Below the pieces are notes generated by a model. It worked only from the letters and a program-made list of their open reading frames with translations. It was not told where the DNA came from and made no database searches. Source: Microcaldota archaeon (GTDB lineage Archaea > Micrarchaeota > Micrarchaeia > Micrarchaeales > Micrarchaeaceae). Taken from it: a stretch of 64,000 bases of DNA. How positions within the stretch are numbered: position 1 is the first letter of the stretch; every line of letters begins with the position of its first letter. Positions 35,838 to 52,122 of this stretch are shown piece after piece. Both the position numbers and the translations under genes were made by a program. The stretch lies in contig JAJZAJ010000002.1 in assembly GCA_021799475.1 (NCBI GenBank), forward strand, positions 1 through 64,000. The letters run 5' to 3'.

Positions 35838-35912
35838 GCTCCCTTCGTCTAGCTCGGCCAAGGACACGGGGCTTTCAACCCCGCAACTCGGGTTCAAATC
35901 CCGAAGGGAGCA
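35838..35912 (+). tRNA. tRNA-Glu (TTC)
   Basis: GCTCCCT pairs with AGGGAGC. The anticodon stem CGGGG/CCCCG encloses CTTTCAA (anticodon TTC). The T-arm is TCGGG-TTCAAAT-CCCGA. CCA is not encoded. An integrase gene begins 73 bp after it, and the last 11 bases recur at 53301-53311. Confidence 0.95.
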
Positions 35913-35985
35913 TTTTCATTTACGAGGAGGGCAGGTTCATAGCTCATACCAAAAGCTATATAAAGAGGGGCTTTCATAAGCTATT

Positions 35986-37188
35986 ATGCCATACGTGGAA
36001 GACCAGGCGACGCTCGATGGCGTGTTCGCCCGCGTGACGAAAGACCCGCTCATATCCAGGCAGAACGCCAAATACATAGAGGCGCATATCGAATTTCTTA
36101 AGGCCAAGCAGTCGAACATAAGAACACTGATCAAGCACCTCTATCACTTAAGGAGATTCTTCAGGGTGCTGAAGAACCCCAAAAAGGATTTCAAGCGGAT
36201 TACAAGGGCGGACATGCAGGCCGCAATGGCCGAGATGGAAGGCACCGAATACAGCAGCGAGACGAAAAGGAACATAAAGGTCGTTGTCAAGTACTTCTGG
36301 AAGCACCTGAAAGGCGACGACGAATTCTATCCGGTCGAGGTCAGGTGGATTGACACGTCAGGAGACAGGAAGAACAGGAAGATGCCGGAAGACCTGCTCA
36401 CCGAAGAGGAGATCAGAAGGATGATAGACTCAGCGACCACCCTCAGGAACAAGGCGATCATTGCAATCCTGTACGACACCGGGTGCAGGATAGGCGAATT
36501 GCTCAATATGAGAAAGAAGGACGTAAACCTGATTACCATGCCGGCGCACGTCCTTTTGGACGGTAAAACTGGGCAGAGGCAGGTTCCGGTCATATTCAGC
36601 GCGCCCTATGTGGCGCAGTACCTGAACTTCATAAAGGAAAAAAGGCCGAACGAGCCCATGTGGACATCGTACAACAACGGCAGGGATACGGACAGAAAGA
36701 CGGATTACAGGGGCATATCAAAGATGCTCAAGGTTGCCGCAAAGAAGGCGAAGATAGAGAAGAGGGTGCATCCGCATCTCTTCAGGCACAGCAGGGCAAC
36801 GGCATACGCCAACAAGCTCACGGAGCAGCAGCTGAAGAACATGTTCGGATGGACCAACAGCTCCACCATGGCGGCTACCTACGTTCACCTGAGCGGCAGG
36901 GACATAGACAGCGCGGTAATGCAGGCAAACGGGCTAAAGCCGCGCGAGGAGGCTACAGAGCCAAAATTAAAGGCGAAAGTGTGCGAAAGATGCCAGTTTC
37001 CCAATACCGTGGATTCGAGGTACTGCAACAGATGCGCCCTGCCGCTGGACGCCGAGCTTGCGGCGGAAACGCAGAATAAGGAAGGCAGCATGAAGCAGGC
37101 GATAGCCGACGCCCTGAAGGACCCGAAGATCATGGAGGACATAATCCATAACTACCTATTGCTGAAGGCGAAGAAAGGAAAGGTATAA
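35986..37188 (+). CDS. Tyrosine recombinase/integrase with zinc-ribbon tail
   Basis: The 400-residue protein has an N-terminal SAM-like core-binding domain (to about residue 115, with TLIKHLYHLRRFFRVL) and a catalytic domain. That domain holds the conserved Arg in DTGCRIGELLNM, HLFRHSRAT (His-x-x-Arg) and the nucleophile Tyr in AATYVHLSG. Near the C-terminus is a zinc ribbon (CERCQFPNTVDSRYCNRC), also found in haloarchaeal and methanogen integrases. It would recombine DNA at an attachment site. Lying directly downstream of tRNA-Glu in the same direction, it probably integrated the island there. Confidence 0.92.
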   Translation: MPYVEDQATLDGVFARVTKDPLISRQNAKYIEAHIEFLKAKQSNIRTLIKHLYHLRRFFRVLKNPKKDFKRITRADMQAAMAEMEGTEYSSETKRNIKVVVKYFWKHLKGDDEFYPVEVRWIDTSGDRKNRKMPEDLLTEEEIRRMIDSATTLRNKAIIAILYDTGCRIGELLNMRKKDVNLITMPAHVLLDGKTGQRQVPVIFSAPYVAQYLNFIKEKRPNEPMWTSYNNGRDTDRKTDYRGISKMLKVAAKKAKIEKRVHPHLFRHSRATAYANKLTEQQLKNMFGWTNSSTMAATYVHLSGRDIDSAVMQANGLKPREEATEPKLKAKVCERCQFPNTVDSRYCNRCALPLDAELAAETQNKEGSMKQAIADALKDPKIMEDIIHNYLLLKAKKGKV

Positions 37189-37264
37189 AGGCTATCTCTA
37201 TATACCAAAAGGCTTAAATATTTAGTAGACTATAATAGTGTATACTAAAGTAAAAGGTCTTAGG

Positions 37265-37631: not shown

Positions 37632-37725
37632 AGCGCAAGATATTCTGACTTTCGTGTATACTCCCTATACAGACCAAAACCAAGTTAGAACTCAAATATA
37701 GGCAAATGATGGCATTTCTAGCTAT

Positions 37726-38655
37726 CTAGGCCCAGCCCGTAAATTTCTGCAATAATCTGTTAGAGTAAGCCTCTAGCTTCTTCTTGAACGCATAAAAATC
37801 CTCATTATTGATGTTTTCCAACAGCATCTCGTCTTCACTTTTTGTATCATTAAGGGTTATGCCTGATTTTGCCTTTTCAGTCATATTGGCTCTGTATTTA
37901 TCGTACATGTTCGCTGCGAATTTTATCTTTCTAACTGCCTCTTTTTCAACATCTTTTGGTTCCATCTTGAATTTCTTATGGAGCATGTAGAGGTCAAAGA
38001 AGTCCCTGGCCTTTATGCCTCTTCTTGTCAGTATCGCCCTTACCTTTTCTGCGGCTATCTCACGTTTGTCATAAACAACGAAGTGTAATGGTTTGATATA
38101 CTCCTTGTACTCCGGATACAACAGTCCAATATCTTTCTTCGAGTCGATTACGAGTGTTTTCAATCTTTTTCTTGTTGTTTTGAAACACATCTCCTCTACA
38201 AAGTTTATCTGCACTTTTATGAAAGTCCTTCTCTTAAGCACGGCTGAATCATACCATATCTTGTAAGTAACAAACCTATTGCTGCCTCCGAATTCCATAT
38301 ACTCCCTGTTGCCTTTCTGATTTTTGAAGTCAAATCCTCTTTTTGCCGCTATGCCAACGAAAACATCGGCTATTTCTGTTTCAAGCTTGGAAAGTGTGGC
38401 GCTGACCTTCTTTTTGCTTATTCCGGTTAATTTCTTCTGATGCAAATATGTAAAATCAATGTCTTCTGAGAACCTAAAATAACCAGTATAAGCCTTTATC
38501 AGGCATGTTCCTCCCTTAAATGCGAAGTTTTTTGAGAAAAGCTGGTTTGAGGATAGATCGCTGAGCAGCTGCTGCAAGATTAAGTCTTTTTCAATAAGAT
38601 CGGTTCTTTTGTAATCTAATGCTTTGCCGATGTCATTTATCAGGTTTATATTCAC
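37726..38655 (-). CDS. AbiEii-type nucleotidyltransferase toxin
   Basis: The 309-residue protein contains the AbiEii/AbiGii signature: NFAFKGGTCLIKAYTGYFRF then SEDIDFTYL, with the aspartates binding metal for nucleotide transfer. A conserved basic segment KREIAAEKVRAILTRRGIKA and DFFDLYMLHKKF follow later. AbiE toxins transfer nucleotides to tRNA or a similar target and cause abortive infection. Its start overlaps the antitoxin-like gene by four bases (ATGA), so they form a type IV-like toxin-antitoxin pair. The length is normal. Confidence 0.9.
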   Translation of the reverse strand: MNINLINDIGKALDYKRTDLIEKDLILQQLLSDLSSNQLFSKNFAFKGGTCLIKAYTGYFRFSEDIDFTYLHQKKLTGISKKKVSATLSKLETEIADVFVGIAAKRGFDFKNQKGNREYMEFGGSNRFVTYKIWYDSAVLKRRTFIKVQINFVEEMCFKTTRKRLKTLVIDSKKDIGLLYPEYKEYIKPLHFVVYDKREIAAEKVRAILTRRGIKARDFFDLYMLHKKFKMEPKDVEKEAVRKIKFAANMYDKYRANMTEKAKSGITLNDTKSEDEMLLENINNEDFYAFKKKLEAYSNRLLQKFTGWA

Positions 38656-39287
38656 TTTAGCACCTTTTCTACCATGTTACTGACTGCCTTTGGATAATTC
38701 TTAGAGTATTTTCTTAAAGTCTCTTTTTTTACACCGCTGGCCCATTCGGCCACATCTATTAATATCCTTTCCTCTGGGACTCCATTATATCTCCAGAAGT
38801 ATATGAAATCCAGTATGGTCTTTTCACGATCAGAGTATCTTAAAGCTCCATTTTCTACAATTCCGAAACCAAGAAGTTTCTTAGATACCTTATTAAATTT
38901 AAATTTATGCCCATCTATCTCGATCGGCTTAGCCCTGAATATCTCAGAGCTGATCACCTCATCTATCCCAAACTCCTCGTGGGTCATATTGTTGATTTTT
39001 AGCGCGCTATGAAGGCCAAAATACCAGTCTTTAACCCCTTTAAGCGCGATTCCCCTTGCAACTAACTCCATATAGCTGTAATGCTCATTGCCCAATTTGG
39101 TCTCATCAATACTCTTAAGGTAAAAAATACCCCTGAATATCCGTATAAGATAGTCGTTCCTTAGCAGATAATTAACAATGCTGTCATAATTAAATTTAAA
39201 TATTTTAGCGTAAGTATGCAATTCCTTTTCAGTAACAAACTCTTTCTTCTCCAGATAGAGTTTTTTTAACATTAGATTCATTGTCAT
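38652..39287 (-). CDS. AbiEi-type antitoxin/transcription regulator
   Basis: The 211-residue protein has an N-terminal winged-helix region (ELHTYAKIFKFNYDSIVNYL, then YLIRIFRGIFYLKS). A domain follows with WYFGLHSALKINNMTHEEFG and later DREKTILDFIYFWRYNGVPE, as in AbiEi/AbiGi relatives. It is expected to repress the operon and protect against the toxin. It precedes the toxin gene with an ATGA overlap. Upstream is a short, very AT-rich stretch (39296-39332, ATATTAAGATATATAAAG) that could hold the promoter. Confidence 0.8.
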   Translation of the reverse strand: MTMNLMLKKLYLEKKEFVTEKELHTYAKIFKFNYDSIVNYLLRNDYLIRIFRGIFYLKSIDETKLGNEHYSYMELVARGIALKGVKDWYFGLHSALKINNMTHEEFGIDEVISSEIFRAKPIEIDGHKFKFNKVSKKLLGFGIVENGALRYSDREKTILDFIYFWRYNGVPEERILIDVAEWASGVKKETLRKYSKNYPKAVSNMVEKVLK

Positions 39288-39393
39288 TCATATCACAATA
39301 TGATATAAATAGACATATTAAGATATATAAAGCTATCTGCTTTATTTGTGTTTTACAACAAATTTAAGGTTATATTAGAATGTCTGCCTCAAT

Positions 39394-42324
39394 TTAGTAT
39401 TCTTTATCCCCTACATACTCTCTGAGTGTTCCTTTTACTTTAGATTTGTTAAGTTTTGCATATTCCAGTATTTCTTCTGTAGTGGCTCCCTGTTTACTCA
39501 TACTATAGAATGTATCTTGTCCTAGTAAGACATAACTCCATTCACTGCTCATTCTGTCATCCACTTTCAATTCATTTACCTTATCCACCCAATCAATAGC
39601 CGCAAGTCTCTTGCTTCTAACATTCCGATTATCTAAATCTCTATCAGATTTTGTTTCTACAAGGTAAATTTTATTACCAATTTTTACAATAAAATCAGGA
39701 TAATAATGAGCAAGTAGGCCATCTTCACGTATATAAACTATATTGGCAAATTCGTGGTAATACTCGTTTATTTTTATGAATGCCTTCACTTTTGAGTCCG
39801 CGTCAATAAATTGCATGAAAGCTTTTTCAAGGCCACCACCATTTGAGGGGTAAGATATTTTTTCATAGATGGTCTTAGATAAAGTTAGTGCATACGTCTC
39901 TCTTACTTTAGTTTCACTAATTTCTGAGAAGTATCTCTTGATAATGGTTGCTTCGGTTATCTTCAAATCATTCTGCAGATCGTATACTGATTTTGCTATG
40001 TTTTTTACAATGTGTTGGGTTATTCCTTTTTGTGCTATTAACAAAATGCGCCAGTTGTTATCTTCTAATGGGTCAAAGCTCTTGCCGAAAAGTTTATGCC
40101 GTATATAGTCATCAGTTAATTTTGCAACTACTGCTTTATTTATTTGCATGACGGGGAACTTCTTTTGGGATTTCTTACCAACCCTCACGTGAATTACTGA
40201 AACCGCATCAACTATTTTTTCGATGAACGAATTATAGCTCTTTGCAGTAAATAATGTAGGCGGAACAGTATATTCACCAAATTTCGTTTTTACTGTAAGC
40301 TCCTCACCGTAAAATACATCGCCCTTCATTTTGCTAATCAATGGCATTAGTTCTTCGATTGTTACTGGAGAGGGTTCTAGCTTTTCAACTGAAAGTTTGG
40401 CTTCTGCAAACTCTTCCTCCTTATCATGTATTATTATTATCCAGAAAAGGTCATAATCTTTGTAATTCGATTTAAGCCCAACATTTATTATATCTCCAAC
40501 TACTCTATCCTTCTTTGTTAGCTCGTCTACCTTACCTACCATTCCTTTCAGAACTCTGTCGTAATACTCGATAAAGTTCGGATGCTCTATTATACTCAAT
40601 ATGTCCATGTAATTGTTAGGTTCTTCCTTTTTAACAAGAAGCCTTTCTCTGTTTTCTGCTTTAATTTCATCATATTGGTGCTCTCTCCACATGAGTCTTA
40701 AGCCCCTACCTATAAGCTGCTCCAAAAGAACATAAGAGGAACTGGACCGCAGCGGAACAATTACACATATATTATTTACATCGAATCCTTCTCTCAACAT
40801 AAGAACTGAAACTATTATCTTTGGCTTGTCGTGTCTATCAATATTGAAAAGCTTCTGTTTTATCTCCTCCCATTCACCTTCGTTAACATCACCTTTCTTG
40901 TTAGAATGAATTTCCATTAACTCCTCATCCGAATAGCCTTCTTTCTTAAGAAAGTCTATCACATATGGTACGACAAATGTGTTCTCACAAACAATTAGCA
41001 TTTTAGGGTACTTTGTCTTGTCTAGCCTTGTAAATCCGTCCTCCAGTATTTTTAATTTCGTTATCCCCGCTCTTATCATTACTTTCTGTCCGTCAGAAAG
41101 ACTGGTTACGCTTCTCCCTTCCCTTTCTGCCTTAAAATCTAAATCTTCCAATGGCACAGATGCAAATTCCTTTCGTTTATCAATAGCTACGGTCTTTACC
41201 AGCCCCTGCTTTATTGCCTCGACTAGCTCAAAGTTTATTATAATATGTGGGAAGTGATTTTGAACTCTGTTCTGGCCGCTACCGGTTACGATATATGGAG
41301 TTGCTGAGAAATCGATCTGCACAAATCTACTTTTTTTATTAGCGGATATCGTATCTATAGCTTGTTGCCATTTTTTTTCAAGAACTTCATCAGAAACTTT
41401 CATTTCTCCTAAATGATGTGCTTCGTCATTGAAAATAAGAAGGTTTCCCAAATTTTTAAGATAATCCAGCTCCATTCCCCTCAGATATTGATTATCAAGT
41501 TCTTCAAGTGAATGTCCTGCAGAAGTACCTGGAGTTATAGGTAATAGCCGTTTGACAGCTGCTTGTGGATTATCTAAAGGGGTATCTAACTCGCTATTAT
41601 ACTCTTCATCTTCAGCCAGTAAATGCCAGTTAGTTATGGCTATTAATCCATCGCCAGTCACCTTTTTGCCGATTTCCTCTTTCTGTGCAACACAGCTTTG
41701 AAGAAATCCGAATATTTCCGCCTTGTAAGATGATGGTAAAAACAATTTTTCGAATCTCTTAAAGTCTGATTGCTCAAAATCTCTAGCACCATCTTCTTTC
41801 CTTTTACCAAGATAAGCATCAAGAAGTCTTTCATAAACTATAATACCTGGTGCTACCAACAGAAAGTTTTTTGTGAATTTATCATTTGCAATCTCTTCAT
41901 ATTTCGAATTAAGGTACTGCCAAATAAGTAAAGCATCAAGCACCCATGTTTTCCCAGTGCCTGTGGCCATCTTTATGCAGTATTTTGGGTAATCATATTT
42001 CCCTTTCTTTAAATCGAGCACGTCCATCTCTTGTAACAGTTCAGGATAAATAGACATATACATGTCCTTAACGCCACTGACTTTAAGGATTTCATGGACA
42101 TATATTGTGTTTAGCACTGCCTGCCATTGGCCTTCGTGAAAATTAATGTCTCTTACATCAGAGAAGTTACCTTTAGGATCCCACCACTTCAAGAGTTCTT
42201 TTGTTACTGGCGTTACCTTTTCAATAAAACTTCCATCGTTCCATGCTTTATTTACTAATTCTGTAATTCGTGCAGCGAGCTTTAGAGGTATATCCCTTGT
42301 TCCAGATGATTTTACATTTACCAT
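39394..42324 (-). CDS. Type III restriction enzyme, Res subunit
   Basis: The 976-residue protein is a DEAD/H-box helicase-nuclease. Walker A is in KMATGTGKTWVLDALL (about residue 120), Walker B in IFNDEAHHLGE, and helicase motif VI in EQLIGRGLRLM. The C-terminus has a PD-(D/E)xK nuclease site (HYYPDFIVKIGNKIYLVETK). Type III enzymes cut after meeting inversely oriented sites. It begins at an ATG overlapping the methyltransferase stop by one base (TAATG). Codon usage is AT-rich. The length is about as expected for a Res subunit. Confidence 0.92.
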   Translation of the reverse strand: MVNVKSSGTRDIPLKLAARITELVNKAWNDGSFIEKVTPVTKELLKWWDPKGNFSDVRDINFHEGQWQAVLNTIYVHEILKVSGVKDMYMSIYPELLQEMDVLDLKKGKYDYPKYCIKMATGTGKTWVLDALLIWQYLNSKYEEIANDKFTKNFLLVAPGIIVYERLLDAYLGKRKEDGARDFEQSDFKRFEKLFLPSSYKAEIFGFLQSCVAQKEEIGKKVTGDGLIAITNWHLLAEDEEYNSELDTPLDNPQAAVKRLLPITPGTSAGHSLEELDNQYLRGMELDYLKNLGNLLIFNDEAHHLGEMKVSDEVLEKKWQQAIDTISANKKSRFVQIDFSATPYIVTGSGQNRVQNHFPHIIINFELVEAIKQGLVKTVAIDKRKEFASVPLEDLDFKAEREGRSVTSLSDGQKVMIRAGITKLKILEDGFTRLDKTKYPKMLIVCENTFVVPYVIDFLKKEGYSDEELMEIHSNKKGDVNEGEWEEIKQKLFNIDRHDKPKIIVSVLMLREGFDVNNICVIVPLRSSSSYVLLEQLIGRGLRLMWREHQYDEIKAENRERLLVKKEEPNNYMDILSIIEHPNFIEYYDRVLKGMVGKVDELTKKDRVVGDIINVGLKSNYKDYDLFWIIIIHDKEEEFAEAKLSVEKLEPSPVTIEELMPLISKMKGDVFYGEELTVKTKFGEYTVPPTLFTAKSYNSFIEKIVDAVSVIHVRVGKKSQKKFPVMQINKAVVAKLTDDYIRHKLFGKSFDPLEDNNWRILLIAQKGITQHIVKNIAKSVYDLQNDLKITEATIIKRYFSEISETKVRETYALTLSKTIYEKISYPSNGGGLEKAFMQFIDADSKVKAFIKINEYYHEFANIVYIREDGLLAHYYPDFIVKIGNKIYLVETKSDRDLDNRNVRSKRLAAIDWVDKVNELKVDDRMSSEWSYVLLGQDTFYSMSKQGATTEEILEYAKLNKSKVKGTLREYVGDKEY

Positions 42325-44441
42325 TAGCTCACTTCTCTAATAGAATCGCTCTCAAAACCAAAAACATCAACAGCTCTTACGCATACTTTTCTCTTTCCTT
42401 TAATTTTTGGAACCAGAAGTTTGGTCTTTCTATCTACTCTTAATTTATCCTCATGGTTCTCTCTGTAATCTTGCCATTTACTCTTGAAAATCTCTCCGTC
42501 ATATTCAGGATCTATGCTCCAGTATTCTATAAGACTCAATGGATCCTTTTCTATTACCTTTTCAAGCTTCTCCTTATCTTCTTTGTCTAACGGAAGTGCA
42601 TCCGGAGACAAAAGTACATAGTTATCCAACTCTACCTCTAATATATCGTTTTCTTTATCCGATTCAATCTTCTTAATTGGTTTTATGGTCAAATATTGTA
42701 GGGATGAGAATCTGACTTTGCCGTCTTTTATGAGCTTTTCATAATCTGCCTTGTGTCTCAGTTTTTCTAAAATATCAGCAGGTATTACTAACACCTGCAT
42801 CTTTTCAGATTCCATGTCCTTCTTAAAGTTTTCTATTATCCTGCTTATGTTAAGATCGAAGTTCCAACCTAAAACAACTACCTTTTCCCACCCTCCCATG
42901 TAAGACGCTCTTAGTTCCTGGGCTTTTTTAAGTGTTGCGTTTCCCGTCATTCTTGTAGGTGAGTCTACATAAACAAGAGTTTTGCTCTGTTTAATATAAC
43001 CAAGATTATTCGGAGTGCCTTCCTGCATTGGAAAAGGTAATGCGCCATATAGATTTATTATGACATGCGCAAGGTCTCCTATGCTTTTGAATTGAGATCG
43101 TTCAAACTGTTCTTTCTGATAATCACCAATCGATTGGTACAAAAATGGATCTGCTTCTTGGTCGATGAGACTTTTCCTAGTAATCATACATGCGGGTTTA
43201 CCTAAGTCGGATATAACCCACTGTCTTCCTAATCTTTCTGCTACTTCTGCAGTTGTTCCTGACCCAACAAAAAAGTCACCCACTATCGAATTTTTATTTG
43301 AAGACGTTTCAATAATCCGCTCGAGCAATGCTTCTGGTTTTTGAGTTGGATATTTTACCTTTTCTTTGGCTTGTGAATTTACAGGGTAAATATCATCCCA
43401 CAGGGTACCTATCTTTACACCTTCCATATTCTCAAAATATTGTTTTTTTAACGGCATGGCGCCTGGCGAAGTCTGAACGATTAAACCTTGCGCCTCATAG
43501 TCCAGCATTTTTTCTTTGGTGGTTGCCCAAGTTTCCAAGAAACCTTTATACTCATATTTTAAGTTCGGTCTGTTCTTATTCAAATTCAACAATGGAATCA
43601 ATGCAAACCGCTTCCCAGCTGGAATTTTCTTCGATTCTCTAAACGATTTCATTTCTGACTTCGTAAATTTCAAATAACTTCCATCTTCCTGTTCAAAAAA
43701 ACAATAGTATCTATCAACTTTATCCTCGTCATACTCTTTATATTGCATATTCCATATAAAGTCATTCGATTTCGTGTAAAAAAATATATTGTTATGTTCC
43801 AAACCGTAATTCTTGAAACCTGTGCTTTTTGCTCTAGTCTGCTTCCAAATAATCTCGTTCTGAAATTTATCCTTTCCAAATATTTCGTCCATAATGACCT
43901 TTACGTAGTGTCCTACCCGCGAGTCTATGTGTACATAAATAGAGCCTCGCTCGCTTAGAAGCTCCCTCATCATTATTAGTCTTGGGACTATCATTTCGAG
44001 GTATGATTTTGTTCCGTCTTTCCATGTGTCAGAATATGCAAATTGTTCTATAACCGTAGGTTTTTGCTCTATGTCAATAGTGGGCAGGTGTATTTTCATC
44101 CTATAATCTGTTTTGCTATCATACGGCGGGTCTATATATATTAGATCGACCATACCGCGCATTGATGGTAATTCGGTTGTTGGGTCCCCTGCCAAGAGCG
44201 CCTGTATTGTTAGTAAGTTATCCCCGTAAATTAGCCTATTCAAAAGACCATTAACCATCGATTTCTTTACAACTTGACCAGTAAACGCAGCTAGGCCGCC
44301 TTTAGCTTTTGTCGGAAGCACTAGCTCATTAGTTTGCAGTGTTACTCTTTGTGATTTCGACAATCCATCAAGCAAGCGCTGCGCTTCCTTTTTCCCACTT
44401 TCGACTATTTTAGGAAGTTCTTCTATCAACGAATCCCTCAT
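42324..44441 (-). CDS. Type III DNA methyltransferase, Mod subunit
   Basis: This beta-class methyltransferase has the catalytic motif DLIYIDPPYDSKTDYRM near residue 115. Further on it has VGDFFVGSGTTAEVAERLGR, the SAM-binding FxGxG motif, in the beta-class order, and a target-recognition region lies between them. It should add a methyl group to adenine or cytosine N4 at a recognition site that cannot be read from sequence. The C-terminal half (after about residue 470) is typical for Mod proteins. It precedes res with a TAATG overlap and lies 81 bp after the Argonaute gene on the same strand. Confidence 0.92.
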   Translation of the reverse strand: MRDSLIEELPKIVESGKKEAQRLLDGLSKSQRVTLQTNELVLPTKAKGGLAAFTGQVVKKSMVNGLLNRLIYGDNLLTIQALLAGDPTTELPSMRGMVDLIYIDPPYDSKTDYRMKIHLPTIDIEQKPTVIEQFAYSDTWKDGTKSYLEMIVPRLIMMRELLSERGSIYVHIDSRVGHYVKVIMDEIFGKDKFQNEIIWKQTRAKSTGFKNYGLEHNNIFFYTKSNDFIWNMQYKEYDEDKVDRYYCFFEQEDGSYLKFTKSEMKSFRESKKIPAGKRFALIPLLNLNKNRPNLKYEYKGFLETWATTKEKMLDYEAQGLIVQTSPGAMPLKKQYFENMEGVKIGTLWDDIYPVNSQAKEKVKYPTQKPEALLERIIETSSNKNSIVGDFFVGSGTTAEVAERLGRQWVISDLGKPACMITRKSLIDQEADPFLYQSIGDYQKEQFERSQFKSIGDLAHVIINLYGALPFPMQEGTPNNLGYIKQSKTLVYVDSPTRMTGNATLKKAQELRASYMGGWEKVVVLGWNFDLNISRIIENFKKDMESEKMQVLVIPADILEKLRHKADYEKLIKDGKVRFSSLQYLTIKPIKKIESDKENDILEVELDNYVLLSPDALPLDKEDKEKLEKVIEKDPLSLIEYWSIDPEYDGEIFKSKWQDYRENHEDKLRVDRKTKLLVPKIKGKRKVCVRAVDVFGFESDSIREVS

Positions 44442-44522
44442 CTAGCTACCCTCTTATAATTATGACACTCTAAGTAAGCCTTCTTTAGCAACCTAACCTT
44501 AAAAAGCTTGCACATTTGACTG

Positions 44523-46058
44523 TTACATATAGAATCTATAATGTGGCTGCAATGGTATGTCCTTGCTTGCCTCTGATAATATTTCACCCACTTTTTCTGA
44601 AAATTCCAAAGTTATCGGCAGATATGTTGAAAAGGCAGTAGTATTCCAATTAAGTTTTGTCAGGCCTATTATTTCATCACATATTTCTGATACTTCAGAA
44701 TCGCCTATATGTGTGATAAGTAGAGGCTGTGGTATGCTATGACCTGGATACGTTCTTATTCTTGGAGTATAACCAGATGTGAAAAGTATGTGTTCTTTAT
44801 CAGTAAGATGTACCAAAGTTCCTCTCAAAACAGGATACGATCCCATTCTCATGAATCGAATACCTTTTCTTTTGCTAATTGTAACAAAATCATGCTTAAC
44901 CATGCCTATTGCAGTATTCAGCCCCTTAATTTCATCATTACTAAATAGTGTTGATTTATGTATCACAACACGAGCAGGCGTACGATGTGCTTTCTCAGTA
45001 TATTTCTCTATTGCTTCCTTTAGTAATGTCTCTGCTTGTTTTTCAGACAGATGTGGTTCTTTCGTAATCGTATCTACATATACCTCGCTACCGCGTAATA
45101 CTAAACCCTGTCCATCGTGTGTGAATACTTGTGCCATCGAGGTTTGAATATCTATGTTGAAAGCTAGCTTATCTCTGTAGAAAGATATTCCGACATAACA
45201 CGTATCGTCCCTTAATTTAGCAAGTCGCCAAGGCTTACCATTTGCCTTGTAGAACAAAGCGGTTGAGAAGTTCCAAGCAAATGACGCTGGTTCTTGTTTC
45301 ATTCCTCCCTTTTCCTTATTGTAGTTCAATACTGCATCCATAGTAGATTCTCTGAGGATTTGGATAGGTATGGCCGGCTTTATGCCCATGTTTTTGCCTT
45401 TTAGAGCATTTCTAAAATCGTAACCTTTGGGTTTTTCCGCTAATTTTTCACTTACGGCTGCTCCCCAGTCAGATAAAAACCTTTGCTTGTTCTTCCATCC
45501 TGCTATCTCGCGCTCCAATTCTGTAGGTTTTGGAGTTTTTGCACCTCTGGTAAAACGAGATATTCCGCAATGTTCCTCAATCTCTTTTGGCAAACAGCAG
45601 AGGATGGCACTTGGCGGGTTGTCTTCACTTGCAATATTACGGATTTTTGTAAGATAAAGTTCTACTGCTGCACCTATTCTTTCGTTAGTATTAGTAATTT
45701 TTAGTATGCTGTCTATTTCAGACTGGAGAATAGTATCTTGCCATGTGCCAGATATGTCTATATCACATCCAAATTTCGTGTCCTTAGATATACCCGGGAA
45801 GTCCGGATATAGCCACTTATTAGCACCAGCACTTACTATTGGCTCTTTTATCATAGATAATATTGCTTTGGTCTTTTCTAGTGTAGATTTATCACCTATA
45901 ATCCCTAATCCTATTTTGTCTAAAGGCTTTGTCTCAGATTCATGCGTATATGGCCCAAAATACTTAAGTCCTATTCGTGGATCTTTCTCTTCGCGAAGTC
46001 CTCCGAAGATTAGGTTCCGTTCCATAATATAGTCGGTCTTAAACTCCATTATTATCAT
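44523..46058 (-). CDS. Short prokaryotic Argonaute (MID-PIWI)
   Basis: The 511-residue protein has the front end typical of short Argonautes (MERNLIFGGLREEKDPRIGL then KYFGPY). A MID-like region includes FRNALKGKNMGIKPAIPIQI, and a PIWI fold runs to the end (CYVGISFYRDKLAFNIDIQT, ARVVIHKSTLFSNDEIKGL, VHLTDKEHILFTSGYTPRI). PAZ and N domains are absent. Residues at the usual catalytic Asp positions are Ser (G-I-S) and Lys/Ser (I-H-K-S), so it is probably a guide-directed sensor without slicing. ATG 46058 and 46049 both fit. It overlaps the Schlafen-like gene by 20 bp. Confidence 0.88.
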   Translation of the reverse strand: MIIMEFKTDYIMERNLIFGGLREEKDPRIGLKYFGPYTHESETKPLDKIGLGIIGDKSTLEKTKAILSMIKEPIVSAGANKWLYPDFPGISKDTKFGCDIDISGTWQDTILQSEIDSILKITNTNERIGAAVELYLTKIRNIASEDNPPSAILCCLPKEIEEHCGISRFTRGAKTPKPTELEREIAGWKNKQRFLSDWGAAVSEKLAEKPKGYDFRNALKGKNMGIKPAIPIQILRESTMDAVLNYNKEKGGMKQEPASFAWNFSTALFYKANGKPWRLAKLRDDTCYVGISFYRDKLAFNIDIQTSMAQVFTHDGQGLVLRGSEVYVDTITKEPHLSEKQAETLLKEAIEKYTEKAHRTPARVVIHKSTLFSNDEIKGLNTAIGMVKHDFVTISKRKGIRFMRMGSYPVLRGTLVHLTDKEHILFTSGYTPRIRTYPGHSIPQPLLITHIGDSEVSEICDEIIGLTKLNWNTTAFSTYLPITLEFSEKVGEILSEASKDIPLQPHYRFYM

Positions 46059-47478
46059 CAATGCTTATCGCTAATTCCTCTGGTTCCTCTTCAATTTCAA
46101 GTTTGAACTCTGATGAAGGAATGTCAAATAGAATGCCATAAGCCATTTTAGCCGCTACAGGAGTGGGGTCTACCTCAATGTAGTCGTTTACATTGATACT
46201 CGCTCCTCCGCCTAATTTGTATATCCAGAACAAAATTGTATTTAGGTAGTTGCCGTTGTATTTGTCATAAGAAAGTCTCGTTATAACAGTGCCTTCTTCT
46301 GCTCCTGCAATTACACGTTTCCCATCTTCAGTGAGAATAAATGTCGGTTTGATTCTTAGGAATATTCTTTCGCCCAATCTGATAAAATCTGCAAAGAAAG
46401 CAGGGTGGCAGTAAATATCCCTATTAAGCTGAGCAGTCCACATTTTCGCCGCTACCTGCCTTGTCGCTTTTCCATACCTAGCTTGCCACGATTCTTCTCT
46501 TCTTTCAGTATCAGTTGAATAGAAAAATTTGTGCCTGTCTAAACTATAATAGAGGTGAATATTTGAAATTGCATGATGTCTTAATTCTCTATTCAGCAAA
46601 TCGATTATTATTCTTGCCTTATCAGCATCCTTTAGCCACGAATCTAGAGATTCTTTCTTAATTGTTCTACTATCGACAAGGCCAGAGTATAGGTTTCCTG
46701 AATCTTGTAGGTTTTCAAATGTTACTATATTGCCGTTCCACTCTCTAAATTTGAAAACCCACTCGGGAAAAACATTGTTCTGTTTAAGGAAGGCTTTCTT
46801 TGAGTCTTTATCTCCCAACTTATCCGTTCCAAAATACACGCATTGCGGTAGTTTTTTAAGTTCAAACAAGTTGCTATATATCTCCTCATTTATTTCGTCA
46901 GGATCACCGCTCAGTAAAGAGATTCTATAGTTTTCGATTTCCAGCCTCTTTTTCATTATTTGCTCTTCTTGCTTAGACGGATGAATGCTTTGTGTTCCTC
47001 TCCTATAGAAAACCTCATCGACTTTAAAGACGATCCTTTCTTTATTGCCTTTGTTGTATTTGCCTTCTTTCTTAGGTGTCAGGATCTTGTGTGAAGGAGG
47101 AATATAAATATAAGCAAACCTTAAGCCTTGGGCATCTTTCACTTCTCTATAAAGCAATTCTATAGGCTCATCTACATAGGAATTAAATTTCTCTTGTAGG
47201 CTAGCTTGGTCTACATTATATTCGTCTGGTAAACCCACAGGTGAATATTGACTATTCGTTATTTCTTTCCAACCTAGGAGTAACCATCCAACGCCATAGT
47301 TACTAAATGCAAAAATATCCTTTGCTATTTCTGGAAAAGCAGAGTCTGAGATATCCATTGTCCATTTGAAATCAAGAAACGGAGCCTCACTTTTCCTCTG
47401 TTTAAGGAAATCTATTACATAATCACTAAGCGGCTCAGACTCAACTTCGTTTATTACTACCTGGGCTTCATGTCGCAT
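46039..47478 (-). CDS. Schlafen/AlbA_2-type protein, putative Argonaute partner
   Basis: Residues 20-130 look like an AlbA_2 (Schlafen-type) domain: EAPFLDFKWTMDIS, then EIAKDIFAFSNYGVGWLLLG. Some members bind nucleotides or cleave RNA. After a linker, the 190 C-terminal residues have a conserved-looking block with SWQARYGKATRQVAAKMW, FADFIRLGERIFLRIKPTFI and LTEDG. It might play the part of the APAZ domain that pairs with short Argonautes, but I cannot prove homology. It is upstream of and overlaps the Argonaute gene. The mature system would be a two-gene defence operon. The AT-rich promoter lies at about 47480-47520. Confidence 0.78.
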   Translation of the reverse strand: MRHEAQVVINEVESEPLSDYVIDFLKQRKSEAPFLDFKWTMDISDSAFPEIAKDIFAFSNYGVGWLLLGWKEITNSQYSPVGLPDEYNVDQASLQEKFNSYVDEPIELLYREVKDAQGLRFAYIYIPPSHKILTPKKEGKYNKGNKERIVFKVDEVFYRRGTQSIHPSKQEEQIMKKRLEIENYRISLLSGDPDEINEEIYSNLFELKKLPQCVYFGTDKLGDKDSKKAFLKQNNVFPEWVFKFREWNGNIVTFENLQDSGNLYSGLVDSRTIKKESLDSWLKDADKARIIIDLLNRELRHHAISNIHLYYSLDRHKFFYSTDTERREESWQARYGKATRQVAAKMWTAQLNRDIYCHPAFFADFIRLGERIFLRIKPTFILTEDGKRVIAGAEEGTVITRLSYDKYNGNYLNTILFWIYKLGGGASINVNDYIEVDPTPVAAKMAYGILFDIPSSEFKLEIEEEPEELAISIDDNNGV

Positions 47479-47522
47479 AAAGATATTATTACTCTCTAAT
47501 AATACTTAACTTTATCGTATTT

Positions 47523-48155
47523 TCATGCATTTACACATTTCAGCATCCCATTCGACAGTAGAAACAGCAAATAACCCCCTTTAACGTCATAAGAATACGC
47601 CTTCTTTCGCATCGAATTCGCCTGCTCAAGACCAAGCGTTACTATCGAGATGTCAGAGTCCTTAGTTGTGTGAGCCTCCTGTTCCCAGTGCTCCATGCTC
47701 CTGAAGGCAATTATGTTATTTGCCTTGAGCATTTTCTTATAATCGTCCTCTATTACATGGGAGTTTTCCTTCATGGCCAGCTCGTAGATGTAGTATGCGC
47801 CTATGCTCTCCTCTCCGCCCTTTGCAGACGCTATAAGGTTCTTATACACAGTGATTTTACCTGCTTCAGATAACTGATTCAGCCCATAATCAACCTCGTC
47901 TGTTGTCAGCGTTACTTTGTTATTCTCCTGATTGAAGTTCAGCCCGTCGACTAAGACAGGCAGGCCTTTGGTAACGCGCTTTCCGTTGCTGGCCTCGTAC
48001 GCCTTCTCTATCACCCCCAGCAGCTCATCGTTGCTGAACTTCTTTGCAGTGCCTGATTCAGGCCTCTTCTCGAAGTCAATCGTGTAGTGCCTGCTGCTGG
48101 AGATGTAATCTGCTGCTATCCTGATGCCCACAAAGGCCACAGCTGCCACAATCAC
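47523..48155 (-). CDS. Hypothetical single-helix-anchored protein, 210 aa
   Basis: A GTG at 48155 opens a short hydrophobic segment (IVAAVAFVGIRIAADYI) and a soluble domain follows (KKFSNDELLGVIEKAYEA, NQENNKVTLTTDEVDYGLN, AYYIYELAMKENSHVI). No ATG is available in the upstream 36 bases before an in-frame stop, so GTG or an earlier non-standard start is needed. The protein is probably held in the membrane with its domain outside or inside. It belongs to a series of four co-directional unknown genes between the Argonaute pair and the IS. No family is recognised. Confidence 0.55.
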   Translation of the reverse strand: MIVAAVAFVGIRIAADYISSSRHYTIDFEKRPESGTAKKFSNDELLGVIEKAYEASNGKRVTKGLPVLVDGLNFNQENNKVTLTTDEVDYGLNQLSEAGKITVYKNLIASAKGGEESIGAYYIYELAMKENSHVIEDDYKKMLKANNIIAFRSMEHWEQEAHTTKDSDISIVTLGLEQANSMRKKAYSYDVKGGYLLFLLSNGMLKCVNA

Positions 48156-48196
48156 GTAAATGAATCCAGAATAGTCAAAAGTTTGCGTTCAAGCAC

Positions 48197-48859
48197 CTAT
48201 TTTGCCGCCTTTTTTGACAGCAATTCCAATATTTTGTCTCTTAGTTCGGAATCCACACCCAGCATATCCGCTGAGGATCTCGCCTCATCTCCCTTCATGC
48301 TGAACCTGTCTATTACCTCCTTTGCGAATTTCTCATAAACCGCAACCTTCTCATTCAGGATGCCTAGAGAACCTTCCATCTCCGTTATCTTGTTCGAAAG
48401 CGCAAGATTTGACTTTCCAAGCGAGTCCAGCAGGTCGTTGCTCCTGCTCTGTTCCATCTCGACGTACGGCTTATATCCTATCACGGCAGCGTAGCTTATC
48501 GACTCCACTATCTGCTCGTATAGCTCATCCAGCACTACTTCATAGCTACCCTTAAGATAGGCCAGCAGCGACATGAATCTCAGAAGGTTAAGCGTTTTCC
48601 CCGGCTTGCTCTTCTCGTCATAATAAAAGCCCAGGCTTAATCCCTCCTTTGTGCATTCCAGCAGCATCATATCCGACTTTTCCTTGCCTGGCTTGCAGAT
48701 TCTGTACTTTATCTCTGTTCCTTTTACCGTGCCTTCGGTCGCCTTTGCGAAAGGAAAGGCTGCAAGCCTCTTCTTCAGCTCTTCTGCCGTAACCTTCAGC
48801 GTAGCCTTGACGCTCATCGTATCCATCGGCTTTATGCTTTCCTTAGCGAGAATCCCCAT
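48197..48859 (-). CDS. Hypothetical protein with coiled coil, 220 aa
   Basis: The first 120 residues are a mixed fold with a repeat-like KATLKVTAEELKKRLAAFP and KYRICKPGKEKSDMMLLECT. A coiled-coil segment at about residues 140-190 (ALSNKITEMEGSLGILNEK) and a Lys-rich end (LELLSKKAAK) follow. The start of the gene overlaps the end of the next upstream gene by 17 bp, so they are translated together. I do not recognise the family. It could be a structural or partition protein of the integrated element. Confidence 0.6.
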   Translation of the reverse strand: MGILAKESIKPMDTMSVKATLKVTAEELKKRLAAFPFAKATEGTVKGTEIKYRICKPGKEKSDMMLLECTKEGLSLGFYYDEKSKPGKTLNLLRFMSLLAYLKGSYEVVLDELYEQIVESISYAAVIGYKPYVEMEQSRSNDLLDSLGKSNLALSNKITEMEGSLGILNEKVAVYEKFAKEVIDRFSMKGDEARSSADMLGVDSELRDKILELLSKKAAK

Positions 48860-49256
48860 GTTTTACCGCCCCTTCGTTGCACGCATGAAGTATGTCCATG
48901 TCGGTGACGCCCAGCATCCTGAGGTATCCCACCACCTCGCCCCTAGATAGCCCTTCATTCCTCAGGAAAGAGACAAAGGAAACAAGTTCGAGCTTCTTGC
49001 TGTTTGCGCCTGCAAAGGCCATCAGCTTGGCTCTCAGCGATCCGTCTCTTACACACTTTTCTGTTGTTTTAATGAATTCCTTGTCTGATATTTTCAGTTT
49101 CATTTTACCACCTTCAATAACATAAAGTCCGAGGTCTATCCCGTCTACAATTCTGATAAATGTCCTACTCGGATTTGATGCGAATTTAAGCGACGTCTGG
49201 ATTATGCAGCTTCCGATGCTCAGGTTTGCGATTCTTTTCGCCTCTTCCTCTCCCAT
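48843..49256 (-). CDS. Hypothetical protein, 137 aa
   Basis: The protein is soluble, with KIANL-type helices at the front (EEEAKRIANLSIGSCII), a central basic strand region (FIRIVDGIDLGLYVIEGGKM) and a Lys/Arg-rich rear with SRGEVVGYLRMLGVTDMDIL, which may be a small helical DNA- or protein-binding domain. The ATG at 49256 is chosen. It overlaps the next gene by 17 bp. No recognised family. Confidence 0.58.
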   Translation of the reverse strand: MGEEEAKRIANLSIGSCIIQTSLKFASNPSRTFIRIVDGIDLGLYVIEGGKMKLKISDKEFIKTTEKCVRDGSLRAKLMAFAGANSKKLELVSFVSFLRNEGLSRGEVVGYLRMLGVTDMDILHACNEGAVKHGDSR

Positions 49257-49843: not shown

Positions 49844-50824
49844 TCACCTCCCGGCCCCATACGGATTGAAAGGTTTATCCCGTATGAGCATGAAATAAAT
49901 AATTCTTGCAAGTCTCCTCGAACATGCAACAACAGCCTTCTTCGGTCCTATTCGTTTTGAAAGTTCGTAATACTTTTCTGTTATTATCGAATCTTTGCAG
50001 TGCATAACGTGCATCCATGTACATTCGATCAGAATTGTGCGCAGCGTTACATTTCCTGATTTAAGGTGTCCCTTCCATTCAACCGATCCTGATTGATGTG
50101 TCGATGGACACAGGCCGGCGTAAGAGAAGAGATGAAATTCTGTCGGAAATCTATGAACATTCCCTATCTGACTTGCGATAGTGAGTGCAGATGTGTAACC
50201 TACACCTGGAATAGTGTCTATTAATTTCGCGTAATGACTCTGCATTGCCTTTTCTTTTACTGCGCCATTGAAGTCCGAAATTCTTTCGGTATGTTCTTTG
50301 TATAGTTTTGCAAGTTCCCTCAATGACAGATGTTCCGACATCTCTAGTTCATTGACCGATTTCTTTGTCAACGAACCCAATTCTACTCCGTATTTGTGCA
50401 CCTCGTACCTTATCCTGTTCTTTGTCGCTGTCCTTTGCCTCACAAAGAAGTCTCTTGCGCTACAGAGGTTCCTGTCCTCCCTTATCTCCTTCGGCGGTAG
50501 ATAAGAGGTCGGAAGGTAATCCGCATTGTACGCGTCCAACAATTTGTGTGCATCATTCTTATCGGTCTTGTTCGGCGACTTTGCAATTAACCTCATCGCA
50601 GCTGGATGCGCAACAACTATTTTACCGCTGCGGCGTTCCAGTAGGTCCACAACGGGGTAAAGATTATTTCCCGCCTCTATTATGAAGGTGTTTCCTTCAC
50701 ATGCAGGTATTATCGAATCAAAACCTTCCTGTGTTGTATCCACATACCCCTCGTCTTCTACCATGTCGCCTTTCTGTACGACGACATAACTCCTTCTCTT
50801 TCCGATATCTATTGCTATCTCCAT
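49844..50824 (-). CDS. IS110-family transposase
   Basis: The 326-residue protein has the RuvC-like N-terminal domain of IS110 (MEIAIDIGKRRSYVVV, FIIEAG, SPNKTDKNDAHKLLDAY) and the C-terminal domain with LIDTIPGVGYTSALTIAS and STHQSGSVEWKGHLKSGNV, where a serine is thought to act. IS110 elements lack terminal inverted repeats and use a bridge RNA made from the non-coding end. The ATG at 50824 is preferred to GTG 50830. The gene is intact, so it could still be active. It sits between the unknown operon and the DGR. Confidence 0.92.
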   Translation of the reverse strand: MEIAIDIGKRRSYVVVQKGDMVEDEGYVDTTQEGFDSIIPACEGNTFIIEAGNNLYPVVDLLERRSGKIVVAHPAAMRLIAKSPNKTDKNDAHKLLDAYNADYLPTSYLPPKEIREDRNLCSARDFFVRQRTATKNRIRYEVHKYGVELGSLTKKSVNELEMSEHLSLRELAKLYKEHTERISDFNGAVKEKAMQSHYAKLIDTIPGVGYTSALTIASQIGNVHRFPTEFHLFSYAGLCPSTHQSGSVEWKGHLKSGNVTLRTILIECTWMHVMHCKDSIITEKYYELSKRIGPKKAVVACSRRLARIIYFMLIRDKPFNPYGAGR

Positions 50825-50830
50825 ATACAC

Positions 50831-51095: not shown

Positions 51096-51749
51096 ATGGT
51101 AGCACCAGCGGCTAAGATGGCAATGGCTCCACAGGCATCAGAGACGAGATTCGGCGACTTTAAGCCGATCGTAGGTTCAACGGGAGCGACGATATACGCC
51201 TTACAGGCGGGGGCAAATCATACTAAGTCTATGGCGCTTCTGTCAGAAGCGGGATTGAGACCTTTCAAGGAGAAAGAGATAATTTTGCTACTGATGAAGG
51301 ACGAGGTTCTAAAAACTGAGTTAAAAAACAAGTGGTTCTACATCGATGGTGTAGGCAGCGAAAAAAGCGGCCTGTTTACACTGAACGAGGAAGGCAAGCT
51401 TGTAAAAGTGGACTCACTTCCAAGAGCAGCAAGGAAGAAGGTTTCACCTGAAAATATCGTTCGTGCATATCCGGGACAGCAGCCGCTGTCGTTCCTCGTC
51501 GATTCGGACGACTACGCCGCCTACTATGGCAGGCGTTTCGACCTGCTTGCCTACTTCGGGCCTCATGTTGTCGCTCCGGTGGTGGTTGGCGTGCCTGCCG
51601 ACCGCGAAGCGGTCGCGCCGAAAACAAGCGCACAGCCTAATGTTCCAGCTCACCTACTTAGAAGAGCAAAGGATCAGTTCGTAGAGCTGAGAAAGCACCA
51701 GAAGCCTGAAACGATTGATGCAATCGAAGAGGTTCTGGGCAGCCTTTAA
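51096..51749 (+). CDS. DGR variable protein
   Basis: The 217-residue protein has an Ala/Met-rich front, then a soluble domain (ATIYALQAGANHTKSMALLS, KWFYIDGVGSEKSGLFTL). Its residues 130-163 are the variable region, in frame with the repeat (PLSFLVDSDDYAAYYGRRFD). Twelve codons in that segment differ from the template repeat, and every change is at a template adenine. Unlike the common form, the variable region is not at the extreme C-terminus; 54 residues follow, ending ETIDAIEEVLGSL. No signal peptide or membrane helix is visible. Its fold is not the usual C-type lectin as far as I can see. It would bind an unknown, changeable partner. Confidence 0.85.
   Translation: MVAPAAKMAMAPQASETRFGDFKPIVGSTGATIYALQAGANHTKSMALLSEAGLRPFKEKEIILLLMKDEVLKTELKNKWFYIDGVGSEKSGLFTLNEEGKLVKVDSLPRAARKKVSPENIVRAYPGQQPLSFLVDSDDYAAYYGRRFDLLAYFGPHVVAPVVVGVPADREAVAPKTSAQPNVPAHLLRRAKDQFVELRKHQKPETIDAIEEVLGSL
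51483..51583 (+). repeat. DGR variable region (VR)
   Basis: It is 101 bp long and aligns without gaps to 51989-52089. There are 17 differences, all where the template has A (to G, T or C); none of the 74 other template bases differs. This is the adenine-specific signature of mutagenic retrohoming. Confidence 0.95.
51599..51615 (+). promoter_or_regulatory. Hairpin just after the DGR variable region
   Basis: CGACCGC-GAA-GCGGTCG forms a seven-pair stem 16 bp past the VR end, still inside the gene. In the Bordetella phage DGR a comparable hairpin marks the target. It is missing after the template repeat. Confidence 0.65.
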
Positions 51750-51777
51750 ATATTATATTGAAGGCAACTCCTTTTAC

Positions 51778-51895
51778 CTGGGTTTGCTTGAGGGGTAAAA
51801 CCCTCCAAATTTGCGGGCATAAGCCCGCGGGATGCAAACCGAGGACCACACATCCGTCTATAGCGCCGGTAGTTCACGAACATACCGGACATGAA
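51778..51895 (+). ncRNA. Structured RNA leader between variable gene and template repeat
   Basis: GGTTTGC (51781-51787) pairs with GCAAACC (51834-51840), enclosing two hairpins: GAGGG/CCCTC (51790-51805) and GCGGGC-ATAA-GCCCGC (51813-51828). This gives a three-way junction. A further hairpin CCGGTA/TACCGG follows (51868-51889). No protein frame is present here, so a folded 5' part of the DGR template RNA is likely. There is no accessory (Avd-like) gene. Confidence 0.5.
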
Positions 51896-51988
51896 ATTCA
51901 GCAGCGACACTGAGTAGGCATTAGCTGAAACCGTGAAGCTGCGGTGTTGCCATGAAAATGGCGTTTTAGTAGATGGGTTACATTATCG

Positions 51989-52089
51989 CCGCTGTCGTTC
52001 AACGTCAATTCGGACAACAACGCCGCCAACTATGGCAGGCGTTTCAACCTGAATGCCAACAACGAGCCTCATAATGTCGCTCCAATGGT
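51989..52089 (+). repeat. DGR template repeat (TR)
   Basis: This is the gap-free partner of the VR at 51483-51583, rich in AAC/AAT codons in the matching frame (27 adenines in 101 bp). It ends 33 bp before the reverse-transcriptase ATG. It would be transcribed and copied with errors at adenines into the variable gene. Confidence 0.95.
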
Positions 52090-52122
52090 TCTCATTTGCA
52101 TCCTGGGTTTCATGGTAATGAC

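Follow-up and report, generated by a model that had tools for sequence, protein, structure and literature searches.

The window, i.e. the whole stretch of 64,000 nucleotides analysed here, carries a short Argonaute gene overlapped by the gene of a partner protein, in which a Schlafen-type AlbA_2 domain is followed by an APAZ domain (Table 1). We propose, with a probability of about 0.6, that this pair belongs to the SPARxA class of short-Argonaute immune systems, is triggered by a guide and acts through a Schlafen-type (AlbA_2) ribonuclease, which probably attacks tRNA and leads to abortive infection.

Table 1 Features of the Argonaute/partner pair and of the surrounding island (window coordinates).
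Feature	Position	Strand	Basis or remark
Short Argonaute (MID-PIWI)	44523..46058	-	511 aa from ATG at 46058; 512 aa from TTG at 46061
AlbA_2-APAZ partner, 479 aa	46039..47478	-	Upstream of the Argonaute gene, overlapping
N-terminal Schlafen-type AlbA_2 effector domain, residues 1-184	46927..47478	-	Pfam PF04326, AlphaFold, Foldseek
C-terminal APAZ domain, residues 189-437	46168..46914	-	PADLOC and structure-sequence profiles
Glu31	47386..47388	-	Aligned with rat SLFN13 catalytic Glu205 (profile alignment to 5yd0)
Asp36	47371..47373	-	Aligned with rat SLFN13 catalytic Glu210 (profile alignment to 5yd0)
Glu72	47263..47265	-	Aligned with rat SLFN13 catalytic Asp248 (profile alignment to 5yd0)
Type III restriction-modification pair: Res 39394-42324, Mod 42324-44441	39394..44441	-	Pfam ResIII 1e-14, N6_N4_Mtase 6e-40; PADLOC MTase_III
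AbiEii-type toxin gene 37726-38655 and upstream neighbour 38652-39287 in the place of an AbiEi antitoxin	37726..39287	-	Pfam AbiEii 3.7e-29 (toxin gene); island context
tRNA-Glu 35838-35912 and tyrosine integrase 35986-37188	35838..37188	+	ARAGORN; Pfam Phage_integrase 8.9e-23

Both reading frames are open and complete, and they overlap by 20 bp when the Argonaute gene starts at its ATG, as given in the preliminary description, or by 23 bp with the TTG. The 512-aa form of the Argonaute matched the PADLOC short/class-I pAgo models (pAgo_I) from end to end (residues 7-512, E = 7e-147). Comparison with the Argonautes of the solved SPARHA (9om4), SPARDA (9jsb, 9qbp) and SPARTA (8fex, 8ifk) complexes, which are 471-507 aa long, gave E-values of 1e-54 to 1e-67, the closest being that of SPARHA 9om4 (1.4e-67). 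Neither the PADLOC models nor the solved-structure comparison revealed a PAZ domain, and only MID and PIWI are present, as had been read from the sequence at first sight. In the PIWI alignment, D546 of TtAgo corresponds to Lys369 and D660 to a non-conserved Glu489, while the position of D478 lies outside the profile alignment, the window protein having there a GIS motif, with a serine, in place of GFD. The lack of Asp reported earlier at two visible catalytic positions is confirmed. Judged by these residues, the PIWI domain is catalytically dead and cannot cut.

The C-terminal part of the partner, previously left unassigned, is an APAZ domain. Its comparison with APAZ, which the preliminary description had suggested, was positive with the PADLOC Aga PNTD1-PNTD2 models (best E = 1.8e-29) and with the HNH-APAZ protein 9om4_A (E = 4.5e-14), and the APAZ profile of the family described below matched HNH-APAZ 9om4, the closest solved APAZ by sequence, with an E-value of 3e-37 and DREN-APAZ 9jsb with 3.5e-12. 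These matches rule out a wholly new C-terminal domain. In SPARTA, SPARSA, SPARDA and SPARHA, the short Argonaute is bound by APAZ. The Argonaute half of a model of the fused form also matched the fold of the solved SPARDA, SPARHA and SPARTA complexes (best E = 1.4e-35, TM by target 0.83); the model of the complex presents a pTM of 0.68 and a mean pLDDT of 76.7, which we count against our explanation. That the Argonaute and its partner make up a SPARxA-type complex is, in our view, very probable.

Searches that included a scan of genome contigs with the Argonaute alignment yielded 24 loci encoding an AlbA_2-APAZ protein and a short Argonaute, adjacent or fused in every case; a scan of the contigs with the partner as single query, which picks up near-identical peptides, gave no match. 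Their hosts are mainly archaeal (Methanoperedens, Methanophagales, Bathyarchaeota, Thorarchaeota, DPANN, Thermoplasmata and Thaumarchaeota, plus one gammaproteobacterial MAG), and all of the separately encoded partners that were compared with Pfam (16/16) contained AlbA_2 (PF04326). The partners of haloarchaeal and Nostoc Argonautes, which contain APAZ and no AlbA_2, were rejected as family members. At five loci the two proteins form a single polypeptide, namely L025 (982 aa), L030 (969 aa), L139 (981 aa), L140 (1005 aa) and L141, which is cut by the contig end; these loci sit in two separate parts of the Argonaute tree, and such single-chain forms of sensor and effector occur in several Asgard genomes. 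In this tree, 23 of the 24 AlbA_2-linked Argonautes fall in one group (SH-aLRT 82), with a core of 21 supported at 100, and a single clade for all 24 was not rejected (AU p = 0.4). Argonaute distances correlate with those of AlbA_2 (r = 0.92) and of APAZ (0.88), neither value being reached in 5000 permutations. The two genes, sought together in other genomes as had been advised, thus recur, fuse and diverge in parallel, which refutes their non-conservation. No relatives of the window Argonaute were found in phage records; in viral contigs the Argonautes detected had partners of other types, and AlbA_2 gave a single weak match; plasmid relatives of the partner were absent except for one weak DUF4365-APAZ match.

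The AlbA_2-type domain already recognised at the N-terminus of the partner was recovered with Pfam as SLFN_AlbA_2 (PF04326, residues 32-166, E = 2.4e-11). Its AlphaFold model has a mean pLDDT of 90.8, and the top Foldseek matches were the SAMD9 tRNase 9o0d (1.7e-5) and SLFN13 5yd0 (4e-4), followed by SLFN14, SLFN11 and SLFN12, with moderate TM values of 0.42-0.47. The second match by sequence was 9ylu, a solved AlbA_2 protein named CbCash. The partner contains a single AlbA_2 stretch, followed by APAZ. The vertebrate SLFN core is made of two lobes, the N-lobe and the C-lobe, and with its one AlbA_2 lobe the partner is therefore not a Schlafen proper.

Three acidic residues of the domain align with the catalytic site of rat SLFN13 (Table 1), in which mutants of E205, E210 and D248 show lowered or lost tRNA cleavage, the E205A variant being inactive (PMC5862951). 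In the family, E31, D36 and K38 are invariant (24/24), and the position of Glu72 is acidic in 20 of the 24 members; in L020, L029, L136 and L137 this third acid is missing where it would be expected. The motif E-x4-(E/D)-F/Y-K...GG...G is shared by AlbA_2 proteins in general, and L131 and L132, plain AlbA_2 proteins of the same phylum, have it too, so that its conservation alone is no proof of catalysis. The fold and the conserved acids together make it rather likely that AlbA_2 acts as a nuclease; the fold also points, more tentatively, to tRNA as its substrate.

The same complex could instead use AlbA_2 as a collateral DNase, or as a mixed DNase/RNase, in a DREN-like manner, and destroy invader and host DNA in place of tRNA. 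The nearest APAZ relatives by sequence indeed carry the DNA-cutting HNH (9om4) or DREN/DUF4365 (9jsb, 9qbp) domains, and DREN cuts DNA collaterally once filaments form (PMC12205087). However, the closest solved AlbA_2 folds are tRNA-cutting or RNA-acting (SAMD9 tRNase, SLFN13, SLFN14), and neither HNH nor PD-(D/E)XK is related in fold to AlbA_2, which makes a DNase unlikely.

It is also quite improbable that AlbA_2 only binds nucleic acid or nucleotides, helping to load the guide or to hold the target, with silencing or the recruitment of another nuclease as the outcome. The AlbA_2 domain of pAgo operons was described as DNA-binding, a label that counts against the ribonuclease, and some long-B pAgos carry it as a fusion (PMC6299218); the generality of the acidic motif would fit a binder too. 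On the other hand, characterised APAZ proteins carry their toxic effector at the N-terminus (PMC10810196), the two acids E31 and D36 matching SLFN13 catalysis are invariant, and no second nuclease is common to the 24 neighbourhoods, where even the most frequent Pfam families of 100 neighbouring proteins occur in no more than 6.

The pair lies in a block of about 37.5-47.5 kb with a GC content of 32-41%, against 44-54% in the flanks. The tRNA-Glu and the integrase gene likely mark the insertion point of this island; no duplicated tRNA end was found within the window. Together with the low GC, these two genes, the AbiEii gene and the type III restriction-modification genes bear out the archaeal defence island proposed at the outset. 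The restriction-modification pair, downstream of the Argonaute gene, is island context and lies outside the Argonaute system; such genes recur around the loci of the family. A role of the AlbA_2-APAZ/Argonaute pair in defence is probable.

The overlapping two-gene layout and the AbiEii toxin gene in the same island would also suit a toxin-antitoxin or a housekeeping RNA-processing module, in which the Argonaute keeps an AlbA_2-APAZ RNase inactive and no guide is involved. This we hold to be very improbable: the one-chain form of both proteins at five loci does not allow a conventional antitoxin with separate turnover, the AlbA_2-linked Argonaute retains the residues conserved across short Argonautes with other partners, and the APAZ relatives are guide-triggered (PMC10810196, PMC12205087). 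Finally, a decayed Argonaute lying by chance next to an unrelated AlbA_2 gene, as the presence of the pair in only 1 of 301 genomes searched in its phylum (that of the window) might suggest, is refuted by the intact reading frames, the APAZ domain, the 24 loci, the fusions and the congruent divergence, the single occurrence being explained by horizontal transfer of the low-GC island. In two other genomes of the phylum (L003, L004), a TIR-domain partner adjoins a short Argonaute.

In the guide-triggered ribonuclease system that we favour, the MID-PIWI Argonaute, with its non-cutting PIWI, and APAZ would form one two-protein complex around a short guide. Pairing of this guide with invader nucleic acid (by analogy, an RNA guide and a DNA target) would alter the assembly state of the complex, and the tethered AlbA_2 domains, then switched on, would cut cellular RNA, most likely tRNA, so that translation stops in the cell and the invader is not propagated. 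The guide and target chemistry, the activation by oligomerisation and the collateral killing are modelled on relatives such as SPARDA, in which collateral nuclease activity follows guide/target-driven assembly (PMC12205087). At its broadest, and still more tentatively than the choice of tRNA, the pair may represent a widespread, mainly archaeal guide-programmed immunity, in which invader recognition by a dead Argonaute activates a Schlafen/SAMD9-like ribonuclease and halts translation.

If this is true, an Argonaute would control, in archaea, a tRNase fold known from antiviral proteins of animals, and two antiviral themes so far separate, sensing by guided Argonautes and killing by tRNases of the Schlafen/SAMD9 kind, would be joined. 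To our knowledge, the short-Argonaute systems characterised so far kill either by depleting NAD(P) or by cutting DNA, and we know of few that have been characterised in archaea; a Schlafen-type effector would add translation shutdown to these modes. The single-chain Asgard forms lend themselves to structural and activity studies, and the effector, if it is a guide-triggered RNase, could serve as a programmable detector.

SPARDA (short pAgo with DREN/DUF4365-APAZ) shares with the present system the dead-PIWI MID-PIWI Argonaute, the adjacent nuclease-APAZ gene, homologous APAZ and Argonaute, and the fold of the Argonaute half, whereas its effector is the PD-(D/E)XK-like DREN; here AlbA_2 is found, in mostly archaeal hosts and with some single-chain members. 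SPARHA (short pAgo with HNH-APAZ, 9om4) provides the closest solved APAZ and Argonaute, with HNH where AlbA_2 stands here. SPARTA and SPARSA have the same Argonaute-APAZ architecture, but their TIR-APAZ and SIR2-APAZ effectors deplete NAD(P) and AlbA_2 has no such fold. The vertebrate Schlafens SLFN11/13/14, of which SLFN13 is a tRNase (PMC5862951), and SAMD9, whose domain is named tRNase in entry 9o0d, present the AlbA_2 fold and the three-acid site; unlike them, the partner has only one AlbA_2 lobe, which is linked to APAZ and would be driven by the Argonaute. Schlafen was sighted near pAgos before, in APAZ orthogroup og_40, listed by Ryazansky 2018 as SIR2_1 fused with Schlafen (PMC6299218), a description that would set it apart from the present family. 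The long-B pAgos with fused AlbA_2 (PMC6299218) have PAZ, in contrast to the Argonaute described here, which has an APAZ partner instead.

In the Pfam scan of the partners no TIR, SIR2, DREN/DUF4365 or HNH effector was found, and with SLFN_AlbA_2 as the sole effector match the system is not SPARTA, SPARSA, SPARDA or SPARHA. The AlbA_2-APAZ protein as a stand-alone effector has no description in the Pfam, PADLOC and NCBIfam models or in the literature found. The preliminary description could not place the pairing among the named systems, which holds for the AlbA_2 effector, found in no named subtype, but not for the class, since the known APAZ domain of the partner makes the system a member of the short-pAgo/APAZ class, in which the effector is new. 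The AlbA_2-APAZ/short Argonaute pair thus appears to form a branch, not described before, within an already known type of immune system.

Both genes of the pair are present and intact in the window, as seen from an ORF check, in the orientation given by the preliminary description, and they overlap by the 20 bp stated there with an ATG start at 46058, or by 23 bp with a TTG at 46061. The partner carries an SLFN_AlbA_2 domain at residues 32-166 (E 2.4e-11), which agrees with the earlier N-terminal assignment, whereas the C-terminal part, then left unassigned, is APAZ: residues 189-437 match PADLOC APAZ-protein models (best E 1.8e-29). Comparison with APAZ, the check proposed there, was also positive with a family profile, which matched HNH-APAZ (3e-37), then SPARDA DREN-APAZ (3.5e-12) and TIR-APAZ (1.7e-5), and in a single-sequence comparison, which matched the HNH-APAZ of SPARHA (E 4.5e-14). 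With SLFN_AlbA_2 at the N-terminus and APAZ at the C-terminus, the partner is thus built like the known effectors of short Agos, AlbA_2 occupying the position of TIR, SIR2, DREN or HNH.

The Ago matches class-I short pAgo models along its entire length (E 7e-147). It also matches, at E 1e-54 to 1e-67, the Agos of three kinds of solved complex, SPARHA, SPARDA and SPARTA. No PAZ is found, and the reported loss of catalytic Asp residues holds when the protein is profile-aligned to Thermus TtAgo: D546 corresponds to Lys369 and D660 to Glu489, a non-conserved residue; from these replacements, the PIWI domain is predicted to be non-cutting. In lieu of the two-chain complex, a natural fusion of 982 aa (L025) was folded, with the alignment registration checked. 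The resulting model is of moderate quality (pTM 0.68, mean pLDDT 76.7). Its Ago half matches the Agos of SPARDA, SPARHA, SPARTA and SPARSA, with a best E of 1.4e-35 and TM scores by target that reach 0.84. From homology and the existence of fusions, we infer an APAZ-Ago interface.

Close relatives of the window Ago, mostly 47-69% identical to it and nearly all archaeal, came out of an alignment-based scan across the species genomes of GTDB. Their neighbourhoods, together with samples of four further phyla around these genomes, gave 24 loci including the window, so that the pair does recur in other genomes. Among the named hosts are Methanophagales, Methanoperedens, Woesearchaeota, Nanoarchaeota, Bathyarchaeota, Thermoplasmata, Methanomassiliicoccaceae, Thaumarchaeota, Thorarchaeota and one gammaproteobacterial MAG; this last member (L020) lies on a 36-kb contig and could reflect transfer into bacteria or a binning error. 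All four matches in the Thorarchaeal (Asgard) phylum encode AlbA_2-APAZ-MID-PIWI in a single open frame, as does one Bathyarchaeal genome. Within the window's own phylum the pair is present in its genome only (1 of 301). Two other genomes of this phylum, L003 and L004, have a SPARTA-like TIR-domain partner with the short Ago in place of AlbA_2-APAZ.

In a tree of 103 Ago sequences, 23 of the 24 AlbA_2-linked Agos group together (SH-aLRT 82; a core of 21 at 100), fusion loci occupying two places. The exception, L138, is placed apart from this group and has a very long branch, for which a second origin or fast evolution is possible; a single clade of all AlbA_2-linked Agos is not rejected (AU p 0.4), nor thereby proven. 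Pairwise distances of Ago correlate with those of AlbA_2 (r 0.92) and of APAZ (0.88), and those of AlbA_2 with those of APAZ (0.87), none of 5000 permutations being as high. Effector and sensor have moved together as one unit.

The AlphaFold model of the AlbA_2 domain (mean pLDDT 90.8) has as best Foldseek match in the PDB the SAMD9 tRNase domain (E 1.7e-5), followed by SLFN13, SLFN14, SLFN11 and SLFN12, with moderate TM scores of about 0.3-0.5. Its sequence profile matches rat SLFN13 at 4.7e-7 (5yd0, under the name Schlafen 8), and this alignment places E31, D36 and E72 on SLFN13 E205, E210 and D248, which carry tRNA cleavage; mutating any of them diminished activity and E205A and E210A were inactive (PMC5862951). 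E31 and D36 are invariant in the 24 members, the third position being acidic in 20. This conservation is compatible with catalysis without proving it, because the motif is common to AlbA_2 proteins at large, e.g. L131 and L132 from the window's phylum.

Known relatives bind a short RNA guide and recognise DNA, upon which they assemble and so activate the effector joined to APAZ. The nuclease domains of SPARDA tetramerise when the target drives filament formation, and then cut collaterally (PMC12205087). By analogy with these relatives, target recognition would lead the complex to release or assemble its AlbA_2 domains, which would then cut RNA, most likely tRNA. tRNA is the established target of the animal SLFN/SAMD9 relatives, and its cleavage by the AlbA_2-APAZ/Ago complex would follow by inference. 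The main rival reading is a DNase-type effector.

Between about 37.5 and 47.5 kb the GC content is 32-41%, against 44-54% in the background, and the pair sits within this block, which adjoins tRNA-Glu and a tyrosine integrase. The block has the look of a defence island gained by horizontal transfer, and it bears out the proposed setting with its AbiEii toxin gene and type III restriction-modification pair, and restriction-modification families are also the commonest neighbours of the pair's relatives. No attachment-site copy of the tRNA-Glu end was found within the window. A diversity-generating retroelement (51096-53230) adjoins the island, all 17 mismatches between its repeats falling at template adenines.

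Coordinates of the gene pair, its surroundings and its relatives
Feature	Locus	Position	Strand	Remarks
Integrated low-GC island, whole	window	35838-49256		tRNA-Glu first, then integrase
Tyrosine integrase	window	35986-37188
AbiEii toxin gene and neighbour	window	37726-39287
Type III restriction-modification pair	window	39394-44441
Short Argonaute gene	window	44523-46061		downstream of partner gene
AlbA_2-APAZ partner gene	window	46039-47478	minus	479 aa; upstream of Ago gene
Three genes without assignment	window	47523-49256		past Ago pair; host-like GC
IS110/IS116-type transposase gene	window	49844-50830		between defence island and retroelement
Retroelement variable repeat	window	51482-51583		in 3' part of ORF 51096-51749(+)
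Retroelement template repeat	window	51988-52089
Retroelement reverse transcriptase ORF	window	52502-53230	+	RVT_1 7.5e-16
Divergent AlbA_2-APAZ/Ago pair	L138	5790-8791
Single-polypeptide locus, Thorarchaeal phylum	L030	4585-7494
Single-polypeptide locus, Thorarchaeal phylum	L139	7597-10542
Single-polypeptide locus, Thorarchaeal phylum	L140	2281-5298
Single-polypeptide locus, Thorarchaeal phylum	L141	1-2751
All 24 AlbA_2-APAZ/Ago loci	window; L013-L022, L024, L026, L027, L029, L032; L136-L138; fusions L025, L030, L139, L140, L141

One published list of APAZ effectors (PMC10810196) comprises DUF4365, HNH, SMEK, REase, TIR, SIR2 and two combinations, SIR2 with histidine kinase and REase with TIR; Pfam, NCBIfam and PADLOC have no model for AlbA_2-APAZ. 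In the open full texts searched, Ryazansky 2018 alone was relevant to APAZ or Argonaute with Schlafen/AlbA_2, describing the APAZ orthogroup og_40 as SIR2_1 fused with Schlafen and regarding AlbA_2 as DNA-binding (PMC6299218); an earlier description in subscription papers or preprints is possible. In all features tested, the AlbA_2-APAZ/Ago pair agrees with the short-pAgo/APAZ class, and it differs from each of the named subtypes, SPARTA, SPARSA, SPARDA and SPARHA, in its effector.
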